Shown here: piece after piece, positions 3,342-27,067 of the stretch
How positions within the stretch are numbered: the first letter of the stretch is position 1
Layout: the number at the start of each line of letters is the position of its first letter
Source of the DNA: a virus
DNA length: 27,067 nt
Virus record (IMG/VR): IMGVR_UViG_3300046507_000537
Location: 1-27,067 of that record
Strand: one strand, 5' to 3'
Notes under the pieces: generated by a model
Databases searched by the model: none
What the model saw: the letters and a program-made list of their open reading frames with translations, nothing else
What the model was told of the DNA's origin: nothing
Position numbers and translations under genes: made by a program

Positions 3342-3584
3342 TTAGCCATGGCCGCCGCCGTCGTTGGCCGTTATCAGCATCGAGCGCAGCACTTCCACCA
3401 TTGCCAGCAGATCAGCGCGCCGCCTTGGCGTGATAGGATCAAGCTCGCCATAGAACGCCGGCCCGTCGCCATCATCCTCGCCAAGAGCGTTGACGATATC
3501 GCGCAGTAGATCGGTTCCCCGGCAAAGCAGAAGGCGACGGCCTCGCACATTCCGAATGAGGCGGCGCTGCTCATCTAGCGTCAT
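3342..3584 (-). CDS. Hypothetical protein between terS and terL
   Basis: An 80-residue soluble protein, basic at the N-terminus (EQRRLIRNVRGRRLLLCRG) and acidic in the middle, with a predicted C-terminal helix (RRADLLAMVEVLRSML). The ATG overlaps the terS stop by four bases (ATGA at 3581-3584), a common sign of translational coupling. I do not recognise a family. Position suggests a packaging-accessory or neutral passenger gene. A competing 66-residue frame at 3374-3574 lacks this coupling and looks like a shadow. Between this gene and terL lies about 95 bp with only a weak 36-codon frame. Confidence 0.6.
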   Translation of the reverse strand: MTLDEQRRLIRNVRGRRLLLCRGTDLLRDIVNALGEDDGDGPAFYGELDPITPRRRADLLAMVEVLRSMLITANDGGGHG

Positions 3585-4171
3585 TCCTCGCCCTCGCTTT
3601 CGGCCGTGGCGCGACGGTGAGCGCGTTCGAGGCGTGCGGCGAGAGTATCCAGGCCCTTGACTTCAATCGTGTCCTGGAAGGCATTGACGGCAATGTGCTT
3701 GCCGATCATTTCGAGGCGCTTGACGCGATCCGACAGACGGACCTTGCGCACGAAACCAACGCGCTCTTTGCCGTTCTCGCCGTCCGCGAAAATCTCCTCA
3801 ACATCGATCCCGGCGACGAGACCTTGACGCCAGATCAAAGGCCATTCGTCTACAGGCAGCAAAGAGCCGTCATCAGCGTACAAATCTGCAAGATCAGCGT
3901 CGGCTTCATTAGCAAGCCGTTTTAGTACCCAATCCGCGTTGATTTCTGTGCGTTCTGCGCGTGCTTCCATCGCGGTTGCAATCGCTGTTTTAATCTTATG
4001 ATCGTTCAGCAATCGCGAGCCGGTTACGTGCGCAGATGCAGCGCTATAGCCGCAACGAATAGCCGCGTTGGTAGCGTTCAAATCAACGAGATATTCACGC
4101 ACAAAAATGCGCTGTTTACGGTTGAGATTGTCGTCCTCAATAACAGCGTCGTTAGCGTCTTCATTAGCCAT
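3581..4171 (-). CDS. terS: Terminase small subunit (Terminase_2 type)
   Basis: A 196-residue DNA-recognition subunit of the packaging terminase. Residues about 16-75 match the helix-turn-helix region of the Terminase_2 family: LNRKQRIFVREYLVDLNATN, then AAIRCGYSAASAHVTGSRLL, then a helical stretch ending in AMEARAERTEI. The remainder is charged and helical, consistent with oligomerisation and contact with TerL, and ends in an acidic tail (ESEGEE). The ATG at 4171 has an AGAGG Shine-Dalgarno about 10 bases upstream. It is the first gene of the leftward late operon. It lies directly beside the large palindrome at 4301-4462, the place where a packaging site would be expected in many phages; that link is inference. 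Confidence 0.93.
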   Translation of the reverse strand: MANEDANDAVIEDDNLNRKQRIFVREYLVDLNATNAAIRCGYSAASAHVTGSRLLNDHKIKTAIATAMEARAERTEINADWVLKRLANEADADLADLYADDGSLLPVDEWPLIWRQGLVAGIDVEEIFADGENGKERVGFVRKVRLSDRVKRLEMIGKHIAVNAFQDTIEVKGLDTLAARLERAHRRATAESEGEE

Positions 4172-4247
4172 GTCGTTAGCCTCTTGTTATCGAGGCGACG
4201 AATACCGGCAGACAGTTGTTGTGCTGATGTTGCGACCCTGTTGCTAG

Positions 4248-4504
4248 CTAAGTGCTTGAAAGTGTTGGGCTAGTGTGCCCTAGTGTAAGCCAAACCATAG
4301 CTAAGTCATTGAAAGTGTTAGGTATGAGGGGTGCAGGGCATAAACCTTTTACATAGGAAGAGGCCAGTGTGAACAATGGAGCTTGATTGTTCACTCGATT
4401 TCTCGCGTGTAGGAAGGTTTTTGACCCCTAACCCCTCATACCTAACACTAACAATGACTTAGACCCGATTTCACAACCACTAACCATACACTAAGGGTAC
4501 ACTG
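4248..4504. repeat. Large palindromic/direct-repeat array upstream of terS
   Basis: Arms at 4301-4332 and 4431-4462 are 32-bp inverted repeats with 30 matches; the only difference is a central AA versus TT. Inside, on exactly the same axis (4381.5), lies a 9-bp perfect inverted repeat GTGAACAAT/ATTGTTCAC (4369-4377/4386-4394) around AGCT. A third copy of the arm, in direct orientation, is at 4248-4269 (19 of 22 matching 4301-4322), spaced 53 bp from the second, about five helical turns. An outer pair related by inversion is at 4271-4287 and 4487-4503. Candidate roles are packaging (cos/pac) recognition by TerS, a replication origin, or a late-gene activator site. Confidence 0.85.
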
Positions 4505-4542
4505 CTAATATAGGGATTTTGCAACTAACGCACGATCCACAA

Positions 4543-4571
4543 CAATTCTAACTAAATTTATGCATTATGAA
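4543..4571 (+). promoter_or_regulatory. Putative early promoter with TTTAYGCA operator core
   Basis: AACTAAATTTATGC at 4550-4563 matches the operator-like core at 19942-19955 in 13 of 14 bases and shares TAAATTTATGC with the 6437 site. A TATGAA -10-like hexamer follows at 4566-4571; the -35 region is poor. The downstream leader carries TTGCGACGTGGTGC (4581-4594), nearly the same as a stretch near 18953 beside the repressor. It probably drives the first early cassette. Confidence 0.5.
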
Positions 4572-4639
4572 TGTTGCGCATTGCGACGTGGTGCGAACAA
4601 TGCGAGAAAGGCAACGCAAGCAACAATGGAGCCCCACTC

Positions 4640-5641
4640 TTGTCTATTTTCTCATCATCCAAGCCCCGCACAATCAAGCAGCTACGCGCCGCCCTGGAAG
4701 CGGAGACAGCCCGCACTATGGCGTTGTCGGTCGCGCTGGAGACCGAGCGCAAAACCATCAAAATCAAGCAAGGCGCAATCGACGCATACCGCGCCGAAAT
4801 TACGACGTTGAACAGGCAGTTACGCGACAGCGTGAAAGAGAACGACATTCGCCGAAACAATGAGACCAAATTGGCGAAGGATTGGCACGACAGCAAAGCC
4901 GTTATTTCGCGGCTGGAAATAGCGTGCGACAGGCGGGATAAAACCATCGCCGAAAAGTCTCAGGAAATCGCCGATTTGAATAAGAACAGAGACGCGCTTT
5001 TCGTCATCATCGGCAAGCGTGAAAAAGAGTGCGACAAACTAGCCGCTGAATTGGCCGACAAGATCGCCGAGAACGGCAAGCTTCATGACAAGATTGCCGG
5101 CCTGGAGGCAGCAAACGCCAGACAGTACGAAATGCTGAACGACGTTTGTCCTCGCCTGGAGGCCGCAGAGGCGCAGCGTCATAACGCCCGCGTCGAGCTT
5201 TCCACGGTATGGGAAAAGCTCTGTACCCTGATCGCCGAGCGGGACGGAGCTAAGGCACATGCCGGGAAGATCGGCGACCGGCTTGGCGAGGCCAGGAAGC
5301 GCGCCCAGGCGGCCGAGGATCGCGTCTTGAAGCTGGAAGAAATGCTTGCAGCCGAGCAGCGCAGCCATGAGCAGGCAGGCGCAAGCGGTGACGCATGGCG
5401 CGAGGAAGCCGAGGCAAGACAGCGCCGCGTTCTGGAGCTTACCCACGAGCTTATCTTGCTCCGTCGCACAGGCGCGAAGACCGCGCAGGCAATCGTTGCC
5501 AGCCGCGCCGCCGATGAAGCCAAGCTCTTCGCGGCAGTGTCCGCCCCGCTGCCTAGCGTCATCAGCATGCACAACGCTGAAATCATCAAGCAGGTTGCCG
5601 AGGCGTTCGCTGTGCCGTCTCTCGTGACGCCTGGAGAGTGA
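4640..5641 (+). CDS. Early coiled-coil protein, function unknown
   Basis: A 333-residue protein that is almost entirely charged heptad-like helix (for example LEAETARTMALSVALETERK and AQAAEDRVLKLEEMLAAEQR), so an extended coiled coil is likely; no enzymatic motif or membrane segment is visible. The C-terminus after about residue 290 is less helical. I choose the TTG at 4640, giving MSIFSSSKPRTIKQLR, because GGAG lies eight bases before it. The ATG at 4571 in the same frame overlaps the proposed -10 and would put the leader motif inside the gene. It is the first gene of the rightward early cassette and is followed after three bases by the next ORF. SMC-like or scaffold proteins look similar at low resolution, but there is no ATPase head, so no function is claimed. 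Confidence 0.72.
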   Translation: MSIFSSSKPRTIKQLRAALEAETARTMALSVALETERKTIKIKQGAIDAYRAEITTLNRQLRDSVKENDIRRNNETKLAKDWHDSKAVISRLEIACDRRDKTIAEKSQEIADLNKNRDALFVIIGKREKECDKLAAELADKIAENGKLHDKIAGLEAANARQYEMLNDVCPRLEAAEAQRHNARVELSTVWEKLCTLIAERDGAKAHAGKIGDRLGEARKRAQAAEDRVLKLEEMLAAEQRSHEQAGASGDAWREEAEARQRRVLELTHELILLRRTGAKTAQAIVASRAADEAKLFAAVSAPLPSVISMHNAEIIKQVAEAFAVPSLVTPGE

Positions 5642-10538: not shown

Positions 10539-11837
10539 ATGGGCACCATTGTTTCCCGAAAAAGACGCGATAAGACGACGGCATATCTCGCAAAAATTAG
10601 CTTAATGCAAGGCGGCCAAATATACCGCGAGAACAAGACATTCGACAGCAAGCGCGAGGCCGCCGCCTGGATCGGAACCCGAGAGCTTGAGCTTTTGCAG
10701 CCTGGAGCGTTCGCCGAGGCGGCCAAGCAAAACGCCACGCTTGGCGACGCAATCACCAAATACATCGAGACGAGCTTGAAGGAGATCGGGCGCACAAAGG
10801 CCCAGGTTTTGGCCGCGATCAAGCTTCACCCCATTGCCGGGAAAGAGTGCCAGGACATCGGCTCAACTGAGATCGTCGCCTATGCCGATGAGCTATTGAG
10901 CGGTGGCCGCCAGCCGCAGACCGTCGCCAATTACCTTTCGCATCTGCAATCAATCTTCGCCATCGCAAAGCCGGCCTGGAACTATCCGCTTGACGAACGC
11001 GCCTTTACCGACGCGCAGAAGGTTTTGAAGCGCCTCGGGAAGATCGGGCGCAGCAACAAGCGAGACACGCGGCCGACGCTAGACCAGCTTGCGGATATCA
11101 TGCTGCTGTATTCGGAGCGGCAAAATTCATGGGAGGATATGACGCCCATGACCCATATTATAGCGTTCGCCATCTTCTCTACGCGCCGCCAAGAGGAGAT
11201 TTGCCGCATAAGGTGGGATGACCTGGACGAAAAGCGCAAGCGCGTTCTGGTGCGCGATTTGAAGCACCCAGGGCAGAAGAAAGGCAATGATACGTGGTGC
11301 GATTTGCCCGACCCCTGCCTAGACATCATCAAGGCGATGCCGCGCATAGATGACCGGATATTCCCGTTCAATCACCGGACGGTCAGCACGAGCTTTACGA
11401 ACGTCCTAAAATTCCTGGAGATCGACGGTTTGCATTTCCACGACTTGCGGCACGATGGAATTTCCCGCCTGTTCGAAATGGACTATTCAATCCCGAAGGC
11501 CGCCGCCGTCTCGGGACATAGGTCATGGAATAGCTTGAAGCGATATACGCACCTGGACCACTCGGGCGACAAGTACGCGGGATGGCAATGGCTACCAGAG
11601 GTAACGCGAGAGCCTAAGAGCGGCTTCCGCCCGCCAGAGAAGCGGGCGAAAGTTGGCAGATGGGGGAAAGAGGCCCGATCAGCCGGCGACGCTCGCAGCA
11701 ACGTCAGCATAGGCGGCCGAGCGCGCGGCGCTGTTGTGCCTGGACACGACCAGGGCGGCGGCAATCCCGGCAAGGGCGAGCCCGAGGGCAACCCAGGCCC
11801 AAGGGTGGTCAAGCGTCGTAGCGCCGGCCGGAACTGA
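10539..11837 (+). CDS. int: Tyrosine recombinase / phage integrase
   Basis: A 432-residue site-specific recombinase for integration and excision. The N-terminal arm-binding and core-binding parts lead to a complete catalytic domain: the first Arg in STRRQEEICRIRW (~216), Lys in DLKHPGQKKG (~245), the HDLRH box (~301-305), GHRS (~327) and the nucleophilic Tyr in RYTHL (~336). The ATG has a distant AGGA. The catalytic domain ends near residue 365. The last about 53 residues (Gly/Arg/Pro-rich) are read from DNA antisense to the endolysin gene, so the two genes overlap tail to tail by 159 bp; that tail is probably not part of the core fold. Upstream repeats may be its arm sites. It marks the phage as temperate. 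Confidence 0.93.
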   Translation: MGTIVSRKRRDKTTAYLAKISLMQGGQIYRENKTFDSKREAAAWIGTRELELLQPGAFAEAAKQNATLGDAITKYIETSLKEIGRTKAQVLAAIKLHPIAGKECQDIGSTEIVAYADELLSGGRQPQTVANYLSHLQSIFAIAKPAWNYPLDERAFTDAQKVLKRLGKIGRSNKRDTRPTLDQLADIMLLYSERQNSWEDMTPMTHIIAFAIFSTRRQEEICRIRWDDLDEKRKRVLVRDLKHPGQKKGNDTWCDLPDPCLDIIKAMPRIDDRIFPFNHRTVSTSFTNVLKFLEIDGLHFHDLRHDGISRLFEMDYSIPKAAAVSGHRSWNSLKRYTHLDHSGDKYAGWQWLPEVTREPKSGFRPPEKRAKVGRWGKEARSAGDARSNVSIGGRARGAVVPGHDQGGGNPGKGEPEGNPGPRVVKRRSAGRN

Positions 11838-12732: not shown

Positions 12733-15288
12733 TCAGAACACGTCTTCCATCTTGATTTGCTCGCCCAGGAGCGCGAGGCCCATAGCCAGCCGGCCGACCG
12801 CATGGCGGCGCACCTGGACGCCAGGAACCGCCGCGAGCTTCTGAACAAAGACCATGATGGACGGCAGGAAGCTTTCCTTATGGCCCTCGCCCACGGCCCA
12901 GGACTTGAAATCCTCATAGAGCTTGCCCGTTCGCGGCCAGCCGCCGTAAGGCGCTTCGTCGGGCTTCTCACAGCGGGTTTCTAGCCATTCGTTGATAGGA
13001 TCAAGCTGCATCCATTCCTTGAGCGCGACCTCAGAAGAGCCAGGAATGGTATAGCCGCCGTTTGCCTTGAGCCGTTGCGCGCCGCCGACCGCGAAGCCCA
13101 GGAGTAAATGAAGCTCCTCAGCCTCAATGCGCTCCAGGATATCGGAAATAACCTCATCATCGGGGATCGTCCGATTAAACTGGACCACGACAAGGCGGCG
13201 TTGCAAGCCGCGATCAATGCCGCCGTTGAACGACGGCAGCTTGTTAGCCGTGAACAGATGGACGGCGCGCGGCTTGAAGGTGAAGGCCGATGAATACAGG
13301 TCGCGGGCTTCAACCGGCTCCCCGGTCACGACGGTCTTAAAGATTTCTCCCGAGATACCGGCCGCCGAGATTTCGTTTGCGACGTTCGCGGCCTTGCCGG
13401 CGAGGTTGATAAGGCGCTTGTCGTCGCTCAGATTGGCGGGCGTAATCGCCGAGACCGCGCCTTTCGGCAGCAGGCATTGCAGCAGGCCGGCGATTGTTGA
13501 CTTACCGTTAGACGCGGTGACGCCGTGGAAGATGAAAGCCTTTGGCTGCTTTAGCCGCGTCGCCAGACCGAACGACGCCGCGCCCATGATCTCGCCTATC
13601 AGGTTTACTTTGTCTTCCGCGTCCGGATCGCCGAGGACTGCACCATAGAGGAGCTTGTGAAGCAAAGAGCCCTCGGGCGGTTTAGTCGGGGTTTCTGTGC
13701 CGAATTTCGCGTCAATCGTGAAGCGAAAACGATCATCCGGATTATGCTCTTTGAGCGTGATAGCCCCGAAGTCAGAGACGAACACGGAACCATTCAGGGT
13801 GTTGACGCCGACCGCCGACCGCTCGAAGAAATCCGGCCGTGTGATCTTTGTCCCCATTTCGGCAATGACGCCGCTAATCATGCGGCTCGACAGCTTGAGC
13901 GGGGTTTTGTCCGCGACCGGCACGCCGTCGAAGCCATGGCAAGCAAGCCTCAAATTGTGGTCCTCTACCTCGTGCCACGCGTCCGGACCATAGGCCCATA
14001 TCTTGCCTTCCGCCTTGACCAGAGCGCCGCCAGCCGCCTTGCTAAGGTAGACCAGGAACGCGCCGGAAAGCTCGACTTCGGAACCGTATTCAACGCCGCC
14101 GAAGTAGCGCGGCATGTTCTCAGCGATGCCGGCAACGCCGGTTGTCAGTTCACGCTTGATTTTCTCGGGCGCTAGATCGTCGTCAGGCTCGGGCACGAGT
14201 TCGGCCGGCATGATTTCCCCGGCAGGTTCGGAAGGCTCGCCAGCGGGCAACGTCGCCGGCTCGGGCTCCGGTCCGGGCTCCGGCTCCGGATCAGCCTCGG
14301 GCGGCGCGTACTCGTAGACGGTCTCTTTCATGAATGCCTTGAGATCGTCCAGGCCCCAGCCATCGGCTATAGCGTCGGCAGCATCCCAGCCCTTCGGGAA
14401 GTCAGCCCCAAACACGTTCATGATTTTGACCGTGCAGCCGAGGGCGTGCAGGATCGCGGCGATTTCAAGCGCCGTAGCGCGCCCAGGTCCGTCAAGATCG
14501 GGCCAGATGATGACCGATTTGCCGGTGAGCGGCGACCAGTCGGTATGCTTGACGCCTTGCGTTCCCCCCGCCCAGGAGACACACGGCCTTTGCATCATGT
14601 CTTGAAGCGCGTCTTTGCACTTCTCGCCCTCAAGAATGATGACCTGTTTCGCCTTGAAGCTATCGAGCGTGTCCAGGCCATAGAGCGGGCGCAGCTTCGG
14701 GAACGGGAACCGCGACCAGCATTCGACGCCATCAGGCAGGCGAACGCGCATGACCATAGGCGTTTCTTTCCCGTCCGTCATATCGTGCCGCAGCACGTAG
14801 CCGAACAGCGAGCCGTCAGCCAGCCGGTAAGGGTGGACAAGCGACGGCTTGAAACCGCCCCATTCCGTCCGCTCGCCCTTGCGCTTCGGATTGTAGAGCC
14901 GAACAGGAGCGCCGACTTTCAGCGGTTCACCATCTGCCGGGATAATCTCGATATCCGCGTAAGGGTCGATATGCTCGATAGCGGGCAGCGGAGTGTTGCG
15001 CGCCTCGCCTTTGCCGTCGCCGTCGATAATGCGGATTGCCTCGGGCATCGAGACGCCGCCCTCAATGCGCATCACAAAACCGATAACGTCGCCATCAGCG
15101 CCGCAGCCTTGGCACTTGAAGCGCTCGCTTATCTTGCCCTGATAGACCTGGAAAGACGGGGACTTTTCATTGTGGAACGGGCAGCAGCCCCAAAACTCGC
15201 GGCCGTTCGGCTTGAGATCGACGCCATATTTACGGGCCATTTCTGTCAATGAGACGGTGCGCTGTATGCGCTCAACGTCGTTGCCCAT
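12733..15288 (-). CDS. Primase-helicase (CHC2 zinc finger, TOPRIM, SF3-like helicase)
   Basis: An 851-residue multidomain replication protein. The N-terminus has a primase zinc finger (CCPFH near 35-39, then FKCQGCG near 57-63). A TOPRIM-like catalytic core follows (ILEGEKCKDAL ~217 and the acidic DLDGPG ~263). A Pro/Glu linker (PEPEPGPEPEP, ~330-340) joins this to a D5-like helicase with Walker A GVTASNGKST near 588-596, the typical A-x-N-GKS form of SF3/D5 NTPases, then FTANKLPSF and an Arg-rich sensor region (DRGLQRRLVVVQFNR). It should synthesise primers and unwind DNA at the phage fork. The ATG at 15288 has AAGGA 11 bases upstream. It lies in one unit with SSB and nuclease genes. Two domains on one chain is common for phages of this type. 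Confidence 0.93.
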   Translation of the reverse strand: MGNDVERIQRTVSLTEMARKYGVDLKPNGREFWGCCPFHNEKSPSFQVYQGKISERFKCQGCGADGDVIGFVMRIEGGVSMPEAIRIIDGDGKGEARNTPLPAIEHIDPYADIEIIPADGEPLKVGAPVRLYNPKRKGERTEWGGFKPSLVHPYRLADGSLFGYVLRHDMTDGKETPMVMRVRLPDGVECWSRFPFPKLRPLYGLDTLDSFKAKQVIILEGEKCKDALQDMMQRPCVSWAGGTQGVKHTDWSPLTGKSVIIWPDLDGPGRATALEIAAILHALGCTVKIMNVFGADFPKGWDAADAIADGWGLDDLKAFMKETVYEYAPPEADPEPEPGPEPEPATLPAGEPSEPAGEIMPAELVPEPDDDLAPEKIKRELTTGVAGIAENMPRYFGGVEYGSEVELSGAFLVYLSKAAGGALVKAEGKIWAYGPDAWHEVEDHNLRLACHGFDGVPVADKTPLKLSSRMISGVIAEMGTKITRPDFFERSAVGVNTLNGSVFVSDFGAITLKEHNPDDRFRFTIDAKFGTETPTKPPEGSLLHKLLYGAVLGDPDAEDKVNLIGEIMGAASFGLATRLKQPKAFIFHGVTASNGKSTIAGLLQCLLPKGAVSAITPANLSDDKRLINLAGKAANVANEISAAGISGEIFKTVVTGEPVEARDLYSSAFTFKPRAVHLFTANKLPSFNGGIDRGLQRRLVVVQFNRTIPDDEVISDILERIEAEELHLLLGFAVGGAQRLKANGGYTIPGSSEVALKEWMQLDPINEWLETRCEKPDEAPYGGWPRTGKLYEDFKSWAVGEGHKESFLPSIMVFVQKLAAVPGVQVRRHAVGRLAMGLALLGEQIKMEDVF

Positions 15289-15332
15289 GCGAATATGTCC
15301 TTACAGTGTTGCGTCGAATGCTTATTTCACAA

Positions 15333-15362
15333 CACGCGCGAGACAGGCAAGCCCCGCGCGTG
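15333..15362. repeat. Inverted repeat between nuclease and primase genes
   Basis: CACGCGCG (15333-15340) and CGCGCGTG (15355-15362) pair perfectly across 14 bases. On the plus strand ATTTTT follows, but no plus-strand gene ends here. On the mRNA side (minus) it sits directly after the VRR-NUC stop and may set the 3' end or stability of the upstream message. Confidence 0.55.
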
Positions 15363-16558: not shown

Positions 16559-17032
16559 TTATCCTTTCATTTCCATGATGAGCCGATACCCTTGACGGTA
16601 TCCGACGTTTTCAACCCCGAGGCCGGAGCCCCTGAGTTTCGTTCGAAGGTGGCAAAGCGCCACCTTGAAAGCTGCGTACATGCGCGATGGTGTCGGGCCG
16701 CCGTCCGGATCGTCCGCATACATCGCGTCGAAAACCCGCTCAGTGGCGACCGGCATTCCCTTCCCTTTCCAGATCGCGCCGAGGATTTTGGCCTCAAGCG
16801 GGGTTGCCTTCACCGCGTCAACGACGATCTCCAGCGAGGGGACCGTTACGGCCTGCTTGCAGCAGGGGCACAGCAGCGGCTTTGTGATCGCGAGCGGCTG
16901 GCATTTCGTCACAGACGCGCGGCTTGCCAGATCGTCCAGGGCGCTATCCGCATGCCGCGTGCGGCCATCGCTTCCGGCGCTTGGAAGGCGGCGCTTGTCT
17001 GTCTTCGGGAGCGGCTTAAGGGGGCTATTCAT
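16559..17032 (-). CDS. Winged-helix DNA-binding protein with zinc knuckle
   Basis: A 157-residue regulator-like protein. Residues about 54-64 contain a CPCC cluster (LLCPCCKQAVTV), a possible half zinc site. The C-terminal half (from ~75) follows the OmpR/PhoB effector fold: TPLEAKILGAIWKGKGMPVA, TERVFDAMYADD, AFKVALCHLRTKLRG, then VENVGYRQGYRLI, whose final part is the typical wing G-GYRL. There is no receiver domain. The N-terminus is basic and disordered. It overlaps the helicase gene by ATGA. It may regulate the phage unit or bind origin DNA; the target is unknown. Confidence 0.78.
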   Translation of the reverse strand: MNSPLKPLPKTDKRRLPSAGSDGRTRHADSALDDLASRASVTKCQPLAITKPLLCPCCKQAVTVPSLEIVVDAVKATPLEAKILGAIWKGKGMPVATERVFDAMYADDPDGGPTPSRMYAAFKVALCHLRTKLRGSGLGVENVGYRQGYRLIMEMKG

Positions 17033-18387
17033 TCTCTGTGTCCTCTATGTTCACCGCGTTCCCCGGCGCGGGCTTGCCAGTAATTCCAAAACTTTTCCGT
17101 GTGGTCCTGCTCAGCCGCCACGCGGGCGGCTTCCAGGTTGATTTCTTCCAAGGAGACGTTGACCTCCTGGACGATGCGGCCGACTGACGGCCCCTCTTTT
17201 TTCTTGGTGTAGACGTGGCCGCAGCCTGTGCACTTCGGCGCGGGCCGATGGCTGGCGAAGCACTTCGGGCAAGTCACGTTCTCAACTTCGCTTTCGCTCT
17301 TCGCGAGCCCTTCCAGCGTCCATTCGCGGTCATCATCGGGCAGGCCCAGGCGCGAGAACCCGCCGACCATATCCAGAAGAATATGCGGCTCGTCGGTCTC
17401 GTCGCGGCGCAGGCCCCGGCCGTGCTTCTGCAGATGCTTTGCGAGGGATTGCGTCGGGCTATCGTCCAAGACGCACTCAATGGTCACAGGCCGGTCAACT
17501 TGCGCCGACAGGTCGAAGCCCTCGCAGAACAGGGAGCAATTAAAGATCAGGTCTAGCTTGCGGTCTGCGAAGTCCATAAAGGCCGCGCGACGGTCGTTCT
17601 GTTGCGTCGTCGCATCGAGCGCGATTGCATTGATCCCGGCTTCACGGAACATAAAGGCGTGCTGTTCGGCCGAGGCGACCGAAGGGCAGAAACCGATTGT
17701 GCGCTTACCGGGCGCAAGCGCCTTCCAATGGCTGACAGCATTGGCGACCACGGCGCGGCCGGCCATAAGCGCCTCAAGATCATCCTGGACATACTCGCCG
17801 CCGCGTATCCGCAGGCCAGCCAAATTCAACCCGGCAGGGGCGAACGCTCGATACCGTTGCAGCCGGCCAGTCTCGATAAGCCAGTTCAGCGATGGACCCA
17901 TTACCATCACGTCCCAGGCGTCGCCCAGCGGCTTGCCGTCCAGGCGTTGCGGCGATCCGGTAAGACCGATCAGCTTAGCGCCGGATTTCTTGTAAAACTG
18001 TGCGACCGCAAACCATCCGGCCGCCATGCTCAGGTGAGCTTCATCGACCATGATGTAAGAAGCCGGGATTCGCATCATCCGGTTCTTGAGCGTTTGAATG
18101 GAGGCTATGAAGACGCGATGATATTGGTTGTAGTGGTAGCCGTTCGCGATGTAGGAAAACGGTATGCCGAATTTCTCAAACGTCTTCGCGGTCTGCACGA
18201 TCAGGTCAACGCGATGGACGCAGAAAATCACGCGCTTGCCAGCGTCGAATATGCTCTTGATCAGCGCCGCCGCGAGGACGGTTTTACCGAACCCGGTAGG
18301 AGCAAAGACGAGTACAGCCGCCGAGGATCGGAGGGCAACGCGGAGCTTGCCGCGCACGTCTTCTTGATCTTGAAACAGGCTAATCAA
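17029..18387 (-). CDS. SF2 DEAH-box helicase with C-terminal zinc ribbon
   Basis: A 452-residue superfamily 2 helicase. Motifs in order: Walker A APTGFGKT (29-36), Ia-like FCVHRVDLI (55-63), DEAH (115-118), motif III LTGSPQRLD, IV-V region RTIGFCPSVASAEQHA and EGFDLS, and motif VI QKHGRGLRRDE (~318), giving the RecQ/UvsW/RAD25-like arrangement. A C-terminal zinc ribbon follows (CPKC...CTGCGH, ~372-390), then a charged tail. It should remodel forks or recombination intermediates. Overlaps on both sides (ATGA) put it firmly in the replication unit, beside a separate primase-helicase; the two helicases probably do different jobs. Confidence 0.91.
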   Translation of the reverse strand: MISLFQDQEDVRGKLRVALRSSAAVLVFAPTGFGKTVLAAALIKSIFDAGKRVIFCVHRVDLIVQTAKTFEKFGIPFSYIANGYHYNQYHRVFIASIQTLKNRMMRIPASYIMVDEAHLSMAAGWFAVAQFYKKSGAKLIGLTGSPQRLDGKPLGDAWDVMVMGPSLNWLIETGRLQRYRAFAPAGLNLAGLRIRGGEYVQDDLEALMAGRAVVANAVSHWKALAPGKRTIGFCPSVASAEQHAFMFREAGINAIALDATTQQNDRRAAFMDFADRKLDLIFNCSLFCEGFDLSAQVDRPVTIECVLDDSPTQSLAKHLQKHGRGLRRDETDEPHILLDMVGGFSRLGLPDDDREWTLEGLAKSESEVENVTCPKCFASHRPAPKCTGCGHVYTKKKEGPSVGRIVQEVNVSLEEINLEAARVAAEQDHTEKFWNYWQARAGERGEHRGHRE

Positions 18388-20953: not shown

Positions 20954-21186
20954 CGGGGACAGGAACCGACCCCGCCAAGCCGGCGCAAGAGCATACGCGC
21001 CGGCTCCTGAAAGTCTTTTGGGCATCCGCGTACATGCACCGCCGAGCCCCAGGACGAGCCAAAGAAACCCACGTAATCCCGAGTGTCGCCGGGGTTGTCC
21101 ACCACTCAACCGGCCTGTTGCGCGAGCGCGCTATGGCCCTGCTTACCGAGGTAACCGATGGCATACGCACAGACACAACAGCGTGA
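20950..21186 (+). CDS. Hypothetical ORF between exonuclease and RecT
   Basis: A 78-residue basic frame (TRRLLKVFWASAYMHRRAPG, HHSTGLLRERAMALLTEV). It starts in the exonuclease stop (ATGA) and ends 29 bases inside recT, so coupling is possible. Composition is ordinary and I recognise no family. The alternative is that only recT follows the nuclease; the tight start overlap favours translation. Confidence 0.5.
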   Translation: MTGTGTDPAKPAQEHTRRLLKVFWASAYMHRRAPGRAKETHVIPSVAGVVHHSTGLLRERAMALLTEVTDGIRTDTTA

Positions 21187-22102
21187 GCAGCTTCCGGCGC
21201 TGGATATACGCATTCTGAAAGCCGATCTAGCGAAGATGGCGCCCGAGTTTGCGAAGACGCTACCCGCTCACATCACCGTTGATTTTTTTGTTCGCACTTC
21301 GCAGACCGCAATCTCTATGACGCGCGGTATCGAGAAGGTCCGCAACGCCGCGTCGCTCTTGGCGGCTTGCGCTAAGGCAGCGGCAGACGGCCTTATCCTG
21401 GACGGCCGAGAGGCCGCGCTAGTCGTGGACTTCCGTGGCGACGTTCAGTATCGCCCCATGATGCGCGGCCTGCTCAAGCTGGCCCATCAGTCGGGCGAGC
21501 TTAAGAGCATCGTCGTTGAATGCGTCTATGAGGGCGACGAATTCGATTACGTGCCGACCGACGCGACCGCGCCAATCTCGCACGTCGTCAATCTGCGCAA
21601 GGATCGCGGCGAAATCTTCGCGGTCTATGCCCTCGCTACCAAGCATGACGGCGGCCTCGTCTTCGAAGTCATGACGCTTTCGGAAGTCAACAAAATCCGC
21701 GACCGTTCGGACGGCTGGAAGGCGTACAAGGCCGACAAGATCAAAAGCACGCCATGGTCAACCGACTGGACCGAAATGGCGCGTAAGACCGTTTTCCGCC
21801 GCCTGTCCAAGTATCTCCCATCGTCGAGCGACAAGAGCGCCTTTGCCAGCGCCGTGCAGCGGATCGATGAGGATTACACCTTTGACGCCGACGCCGACGC
21901 TACCGGCGAGATTTCCACGCCCAAGCCTGCATCCAAGCAGCGCGGCGGCGCAGCGGCGGCCCTCAAGAACATTACGCCAGTCGCACCGGCCGAGCCGGCG
22001 AACGACGACGAGACGCCACACGACAAGATTACGGGCGAAGTCCTGGACGGGGAAATCCTGGACCGCGAAGACCCTGCAAAGCAGGAAGAGGATGACATTT
22101 AA
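21158..22102 (+). CDS. recT: RecT-family single-strand annealing protein
   Basis: A 314-residue annealase. The RecT core is clear: SLLAACAKAAADGLILDGRE, AALVVDFRGDVQYRPMMRGL, LKLAHQSGELKSIVVECVYE, GDEFDY, then EVMTLSEVNKIRDRS, SPW-type STPWSTDWTEMARKTVFRRL and SKYLPSSS, matching the family order. A disordered acidic tail follows (DADADATGEI, then DREDPAKQEEDDI), a likely contact site for SSB or the exonuclease. The ATG has GAGG seven bases upstream. It loads on the single strands exposed by the neighbouring RecE-like nuclease and anneals homologous DNA. Confidence 0.94.
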   Translation: MAYAQTQQREQLPALDIRILKADLAKMAPEFAKTLPAHITVDFFVRTSQTAISMTRGIEKVRNAASLLAACAKAAADGLILDGREAALVVDFRGDVQYRPMMRGLLKLAHQSGELKSIVVECVYEGDEFDYVPTDATAPISHVVNLRKDRGEIFAVYALATKHDGGLVFEVMTLSEVNKIRDRSDGWKAYKADKIKSTPWSTDWTEMARKTVFRRLSKYLPSSSDKSAFASAVQRIDEDYTFDADADATGEISTPKPASKQRGGAAAALKNITPVAPAEPANDDETPHDKITGEVLDGEILDREDPAKQEEDDI

Positions 22103-26141: not shown

Positions 26142-27067
26142 TTACGCTCCAATCCTCGGGATTTGGTAGTCTTCCCATCCCATAGAAGTACCTACAGCAG
26201 TTCCGTTAGCCACAACGAAAGTAGCAGAGAAGTATATCTGCTTTGCCGTGTTAGTCCGCACCTTACCGACAGCGTCACCGCTAACACTATTTGCGGCGGT
26301 TGCACTTGATGCCATTGCACGAATAGACCATGTGCTGGCCGTAGGTGGCAAATTTCCATCAGTCATATACACGTCGGTGCTTGAGTTTACTACTGGCGCT
26401 GCGGTGCAGATGATTGTTGCAAGCAAGTCAACTGATATCCCATTAGGGATTGACGGCCACGTCACCAGCGCCCTAGCGAATGACGCTGCAACTGTCGCCT
26501 CTTGTACAGCGGCAGACAATACGGTTTTGTTGCCCGACATCGTGCAGGCGCGGATTGTCGCGGCGGCGGCCTCTGCAATCATGCAGCCGAGGCGGATGAC
26601 CAAATCATAACCGGACGGGACGACTGGAGCCGTTGCGCTGGTCGATGCAATAGCCGCGAAACTCCGGTCAGATTGCTTGCGGAGCGCCCAAACGTGGTAG
26701 GTTGCGCCGGCAGCAAGCGCGCCGGCATCGAGCTTTCCAGCGCCGACGCCTGATAGAGTGATGGTGTATGTAGCCGCGTTGGCAACGAACTTTCCGTTAC
26801 CCTTGGCAGAGCCAACGGAAATATCAATCTTTGTTGTCGGCGTCGTCGGGTTGTTTGCCAGTATTAGCCGATCCACGAAATCAGGAACGCCGGCAGCGAC
26901 ATTCAGCAGGTCGTTGCCATTCATGTCGATGTCGCCGGCCATTACCCCGCCTGCAAGCGCCTGCGCTATCGGCAGCCATTGCGACACAGAATAATAATAC
27001 ATGCCGACGCGGGTCGTATCGAAATACAAATCACCAGACTGCAACGCGGTCCCGTCATTCCGTTTAG
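26142..27067 (-). CDS. Tail-fibre-like protein (5' end cut by window)
   Basis: The frame is open to the right edge, so the N-terminus is missing; 308 residues are visible. The start of the visible part, KRNDGTALQSGDLYFDTTR followed by GMYYYSVSQWLPI, is a module common in phage tail fibres. GDIDMNGNDLLNVAAGV is a beta-helix-like fibre motif, and the rest is Ala/Thr/Ser-rich beta structure ending DYQIPRIGA. The internal TTG at 27044 should not be taken as the start. It heads the leftward tail-lysis unit in this window and is followed by the 25751 gene. Confidence 0.82.
   Translation of the reverse strand, partial: KRNDGTALQSGDLYFDTTRVGMYYYSVSQWLPIAQALAGGVMAGDIDMNGNDLLNVAAGVPDFVDRLILANNPTTPTTKIDISVGSAKGNGKFVANAATYTITLSGVGAGKLDAGALAAGATYHVWALRKQSDRSFAAIASTSATAPVVPSGYDLVIRLGCMIAEAAAATIRACTMSGNKTVLSAAVQEATVAASFARALVTWPSIPNGISVDLLATIICTAAPVVNSSTDVYMTDGNLPPTASTWSIRAMASSATAANSVSGDAVGKVRTNTAKQIYFSATFVVANGTAVGTSMGWEDYQIPRIGA

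Follow-up and report, generated by a model that had tools for sequence, protein, structure and literature searches.

The window (the whole stretch of virus DNA that was analysed, 27,067 nt, positions 1 to 27,067 of the IMG/VR record IMGVR_UViG_3300046507_000537) contains a non-coding stretch that is bordered on one side by terS (Terminase_2; 3581-4171, minus strand), the neighbouring late gene, and on the other side by a rightward operon, the first gene of which is a divergent, coiled-coil-like ORF (4571-5641, plus strand). The stretch is A+T-richer than the window as a whole (44% G+C compared to 58%), and the most A+T-rich part of the region (4532-4570, 72% A+T) is a possible unwinding or promoter stretch. 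Repeats of the type TTGCGA/TCGCAACAAC adjoin both divergent gene starts (about 4216-4238 and 4560-4600), with a similar stretch upstream of the window primase gene (near 15300-15335), and in the syntenic relative L003 the TTGCGA-type repeats are palindromic (5562-5591, TTGTTGGTATTGCGAATGTCGCAACAAG). These repeats are probably repressor operators.

The large terminase and portal proteins of the window display 74-76% identity to those of L003, and its TerL is approximately 54% identical to the TerL proteins of epsilon15 and phiV10. A RecT-family recombinase (21158-22102, plus strand) and a superfamily 2 helicase (17029-18387, minus strand) represent recombination/replication genes of the phage. 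Near the contig end, the product of the gene at 26142-27044 (minus strand) weakly matched PF21916, the second domain of the BPP-1 tropism determinant Mtd, and a diversity-generating retroelement could lie just outside the window, close to this Mtd-like gene.

Anatomy of the palindromic element

The element as a whole (4245-4510), a proposed replication origin, comprises two inverted arms of iterons and cores together with a third core, a layout that is also found in relatives. The left arm of the palindrome (4301-4332, plus strand) pairs with the right arm (4431-4462, minus strand) at 30 of 32 positions, the mismatches being confined to 4312-4313, and when the arms are extended ungapped, with the right one reaching inward to 4414, the match over 4301-4349/4414-4462 is 80%. 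An inner 9-bp inverted repeat, GTGAACAAT (4369-4377) and ATTGTTCAC (4386-4394), has the same axis as the arms (4381.5), and a direct copy is found 53 bp away (4245-4269 compared to 4298-4322, 88%). The 32-bp arms, the inner repeat on exactly their axis, the third copy and the lack of a coding explanation for a stretch next to terS had all been put forward in the original prediction, and all were found as described. The palindrome is real and far beyond chance, as the 399-bp intergenic region gave an ungapped inverted-repeat score of 26 at best, while 200 dinucleotide shuffles of it reached no more than 12.

The palindrome is assembled from two kinds of sites, an AGTGT iteron and an IHF-type core. 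Both sets of repeats are additions to the original prediction, whose wording of multiple R-type sites around a symmetric centre is a good structural description. The AGTGT motif occurs 8 times in the 266 bp of the element (4245-4510), where 0.15 copies would be expected, compared to 15 times in the remaining 26.8 kb, and the best copies continue with TAGG. Five plus-strand copies on the left and three minus-strand copies on the right of the element form two iteron sets which flank the central region. On the left, outer iterons at 4261, 4272 and 4282 (4261-4286, plus strand) are followed by an inner iteron, AGTGTTAGG (4314-4322, plus strand), and an extra AGTGT in the centre (4366-4370, plus strand). 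On the right, the inner iteron AGTGTTAGG (4441-4449, minus strand) is followed by outer AGTGT copies at 4488-4492 and 4499-4503 (4488-4503, minus strand), which mirror those at 4272 and 4261 to within 1 bp.

The cores are found in the left arm (TTTCAATGACTTA, 4302-4314, minus strand) and in the right arm (TAACAATGACTTA, 4449-4461, plus strand; one mismatch to WWTCAANNNNTTA), and a third core (TTTCAAGCACTTA, 4249-4261, minus strand) lies beyond the left-arm core, 53 bp further towards terS. Within the 27 kb, the strict form WWTCAANNNNTTA is confined to two places, 4302-4314 and 4249-4261, both inside the element. The IHF consensus is WATCAANNNNTTR, which the core (T)TCAATGACTTA resembles, with T instead of A at position 2 in the window, and judging from its letters the core resembles a site to which IHF, a DNA-bending protein of the host, binds.

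Occurrence of the element in other phages

The syntenic phage L003 carries a differently spelled element at the matching place. Its iteron GTGTAGGA is present in 5 copies, all within the element and arranged as inverted pairs 52 bp apart about one axis, and a core (TAAGTCATTG) lies between the iterons, as in the window. L019 retains both core and iterons, while in L020, whose TerS has diverged, the repeats are different ones and a single core-like site is present. When IMG/VR was searched for core pairs with a gap of 125-155 bp, 64 stretches were returned, about 30 of which, as judged by eye, are plainly the same kind of element in otherwise dissimilar phages; the remaining pattern matches (e.g. 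L030, L035 and L050) look like coding DNA and were set aside as coincidences. The clear copies share the core and the inverted layout, with a core spacing of about 150-166 bp and often a third core outside, and their iterons sit on both sides of each core and differ from phage to phage (ATGTGAGA, ATGTTAGA, GTACC/GTAGC, GTTACC/GTTTCC, CCGTACAG, GATATTAGCC and others). Poor conservation of the arms in close relatives had been named in advance as evidence against the original prediction; the relatives gave a divided answer, in which core and layout are kept but the letters of the iterons change.

An unbiased check of the core was obtained from loci fetched by protein homology only, with TerS or an early protein from the G007/G023 group as query. 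Among the 10-mers most widely shared by these regions was AAGTCATTGA, present in 15 of 23 after dereplication, and the 19 of 48 dereplicated loci with a readable core pair gave the consensus WWTCAANNACTTA, in which the first two N are free, in a scan that itself required CAA and allowed at most 2 mismatches. Set against WATCAANNNNTTR, these cores fit in frame and are variable at the first two N, but T frequently replaces the A of WATCAA, and AC fills the last two N almost without exception. The spacing of the core pair was mostly 152-166 bp, and many of these loci carry an additional core in the direction of terS, at +51 or +62-63 bp; the third core of the window, at 53 bp, lies on the same side. 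None of the matches listed in a literature search for the core as a string were about phages. Short core matches also occur in other settings, since TAAGTTATTGATTTTA is present in L085 (1444-1601) beside a tRNA-like 3' end and outside any palindrome.

Most of the elements are located at or near terS. They adjoin this gene in the window and in L003, L019, L020, L057 and L078, the last of which has its element between primase and terS, and lie within about 1-1.3 kb of it in the G007/G023 group. The element of G018 is instead found in the replication region, between a primase and a helicase gene on the same strand and approximately 26 kb from TerL, and that of G008 lies likewise in the replication region, approximately 14 kb from TerL and 4 kb from a DUF5906 primase. 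A+T-rich tracts could be read directly in the element centres of L019 and the G023 group. The GC skew of whole records displayed no consistent extremum at the element, and blastn searches with the L078 and L057 elements against annotated phages yielded nothing useful.

Two further features were seen next to the element in these phages. A hypervariable gene of 180-230 aa is located between element and terS in L046 (840-1523), L056 (2202-2870), L080 (1484-2038), L043 (1148-1744) and others; L043 and L056 share both this gene and a palindrome (CGGGCATATGCCCGA), while L046, with another gene at this place, has TTAGGGACGTCCCTAA, and gene and palindrome are possibly an immunity cassette. In the early operon of the G007/G023/G016/G006 group, an AAA ATPase (AAA_5) and a DUF2201 metallopeptidase/VWA protein form a conserved pair next to the element (e.g. 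L104, 16021-18725).

Iteron class and the C-terminus of the replication helicase

Close relatives can differ in their iterons. L043 has TGTGAGA where L046 and L056 have TGTTAGA, despite near-identical TerS proteins (95-96% identity); where compared, TerL (95-99%), a 306-aa early protein (98%) and the AAA protein (97%) are similarly conserved. To find the protein that follows the iterons, ten longer related genomes were classed by iteron as GTACC (G023, G030, G042 and G036) or GTTCC (G031-G035 and G044), the classes having been judged by eye at a stage when no protein column had yet been looked at. Among 10,809 gap-free columns in 75 orthologue families of the ten phages, only 2 were fixed-different between the classes, and both fall in the last 34 residues of a 940-aa DUF927 helicase (Q versus K at position 907 and R versus W at position 922, G023 numbering). 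No such column was found among the 204 columns of TerS, nor in TerL or any other of the 75 families. Of the 210 possible 4:6 splits of the ten phages, only the GTACC/GTTCC split places two such columns within the final 75 columns of the DUF927 protein, with other splits giving up to five elsewhere in it, and the pattern therefore does not simply follow ancestry. In this phage group, the computation demonstrates that the C-terminus of the replication helicase tracks the iteron class via two residues.

The C-terminus of the DUF927 protein is predicted to be a winged helix (pLDDT about 85), and the two strands of the wing carry residues 907 and 922. The PDB yielded weak fold matches (best E 0.18), the top ones being to the DUF927 helicase Cch and to winged-helix domains that bind DNA. 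The K at the first site is also present in the more distant GTTC phages G037, G038, G039, G041 and G048, but it is not exclusive to them, as G040, with iterons that apparently read GTTAC, has K too, and at the second site the distant GTTC phages lack the W. Two other candidate readers were rejected: the hypervariable gene X beside terS in the G007 group, which is unrelated between phages with the same iteron, and the small zinc-ribbon protein p119, which differs between iteron neighbours but without a class-fixed column.

The covariation comes from a DUF927 phage group, and the window's own group is represented by two primases. Of the window proteins that were scanned, none was identified as a DUF927 protein; DUF5906 and DNA-primase families are found in the window and DUF927 in the G023 group. 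The proposed initiator of the window phage is an 851-aa primase-helicase with a CHC2 zinc finger and a DUF5906 domain (12733-15288, minus strand), the helicase part of which matches the solved DNA primase 7ola (E 1.4e-4). Its gene lies 8.2 kb from the element, which is thus not immediately 3' of it. The window and L003 primases are 52% identical overall, 60-80% in the helicase and 33% in the last 45 residues, though some linker regions are even less conserved. The low identity at the C-terminal end fits a reader that changed together with the iteron, and by analogy with the DUF927 proteins the C-terminus of the window primase would be the part that reads AGTGT. The structure model of this C-terminus (pLDDT 43) was too poor to use.

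Function of the element and comparison with known systems

Taken together, we consider it likely that the element is the iteron replication origin of the phage, built on an IHF-type scaffold and read by the C-terminus of the primase-helicase encoded at 12733-15288. The anatomy, the core, spacing and third core conserved in many phages and the phage-specific iterons are directly observed; that the window element shares the function of those in its relatives, that the window primase reads its iterons, that IHF binds the core and that helicases are loaded bidirectionally are what we infer from them. In the mechanism envisaged, two arrays of short repeats (AGTGT[TAGG] in the window) would face each other across a centre of approximately 100 bp, and the C-terminal domain of the primase-helicase would bind the iterons and load a helicase onto each of the two arms. 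The constant TCAATGACTTA cores between the iterons may be bound by IHF or another bending protein of its kind, and the bending would fold each arm and bring together iterons that are about 52 bp apart. The centre or the A+T-rich flank would then melt and forks would depart in both directions; with 53-60% A+T compared to 42% window-wide, the centre in the window is not strikingly A+T-rich.

The original prediction favoured a packaging or cos site and named an origin or an activator site as alternatives, and it is the origin that gained support, as the iterons track a replication helicase. If the element were a cos or pac site, the iterons would be R-sites for TerS, the cores IHF sites between them and the central 26-bp palindrome the cut site. 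The places beside terS listed above and the repeat-IHF-repeat order, which resembles lambda cosB, speak for such a role, but we find it unlikely: in the ten related phages two helicase residues follow the iteron class while none of the 204 TerS columns does, 95-96% identical TerS proteins accompany different iterons, and the central palindrome was not seen in the relatives inspected. A replication origin also accounts for all positions of the element, which a packaging site does not, because the G018 and G008 elements are far from TerL.

Control of transcription of the divergent early and late operons, with the iterons as activator or repressor sites, appears less probable still. The element does lie between divergent genes, where promoters must be present, and operator-like TTGCGA-type repeats adjoin both gene starts; these repeats are, however, separate from the iterons, the positions of the G018 element (between two same-strand replication genes) and the L078 element (between primase and terS) need no divergent promoter, and the covariation points to the replication helicase. 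An attP, with the core as arm-type sites of a tyrosine integrase, was considered because TAAGTTATTGATTT is also found beside the tRNA-like end in L085, and an integrase gene is present in the window (10539-11837) as well as approximately 0.6 kb from the element in L045. Integrase arm sites were not supported and this role is highly improbable, given that the element is 6 kb from the window integrase, that no tRNA was found within the window and that the iterons of the G007/G023 group covary with the DUF927 helicase.

Returning to the replication origin, it is about an even call whether the elements represent a widespread and undescribed class of phage origins. In such a class, two or three IHF-type TCAANNACTTA cores, set at a fixed helical spacing, would form a constant scaffold of bends, and interchangeable iterons on it would be matched to DUF927 and CHC2-DUF5906 initiators. 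Origins of this class would usually be found at the early/late boundary beside terS, where they might in addition couple the firing of the origin to late expression or to packaging. For most temperate and environmental phages no origin has been mapped, and the constant core provides a searchable signature, which located similar elements in many metagenomic phages. The two-residue covariation, in turn, offers a first step towards a code that links replication helicases to the origins they select.

With respect to known systems, the element is similar to lambda cosB (R3-IHF-R2-R1) in its repeat-IHF-repeat order and in its place next to terS. The likeness extends to SPP1 pac (PMC6316719). Unlike both, the element has a two-sided symmetry, its iterons do not track TerS, and the elements of G018 and G008 are far from the terminase.

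The alpha protein of P4, with its ori and crr, offers a parallel by protein architecture, as the same broad type of primase-helicase reads iterons. P4 alpha does so at, among others, a site away from its own gene. Alpha and its cognate site are named in PMC6092414.

In the SaPI and PICI systems, the initiator is either Rep, a DUF927 protein as in SaPIbov1, or Pri-Rep, which is of the D5/Primase_Cterm type as in SaPI5 (PMC7581432, PMC6092414), with DUF927 being a domain of the SaPIbov1 Rep helicase and SaPI Rep recognizing a multi-iteron origin with its C-terminal domain (PMC7581432). The similarities comprise two sets of short, element-specific iterons around a centre and a self-loading helicase initiator of these types (PMC7581432, PMC6092414), to which recognition by the C-terminal domain, supported by the covariation in the G023 relatives, may be added for the window. 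SaPI/PICI origins lie immediately 3' of rep, whereas the window element is 8 kb from the primase gene and beside terS, and for this reason it is not classed as a PICI origin. It further differs in belonging to a phage with its own structural genes, and in having strictly inverted arms with an interleaved, constant IHF-type core, including the third copy; such an interleaved core is not mentioned in the published SaPI/PICI passages (PMC7581432, PMC6092414). By analogy, the element would thus work like the SaPI/PICI and P4 origins, while its place, its inverted layout and its interleaved core appear to be new.
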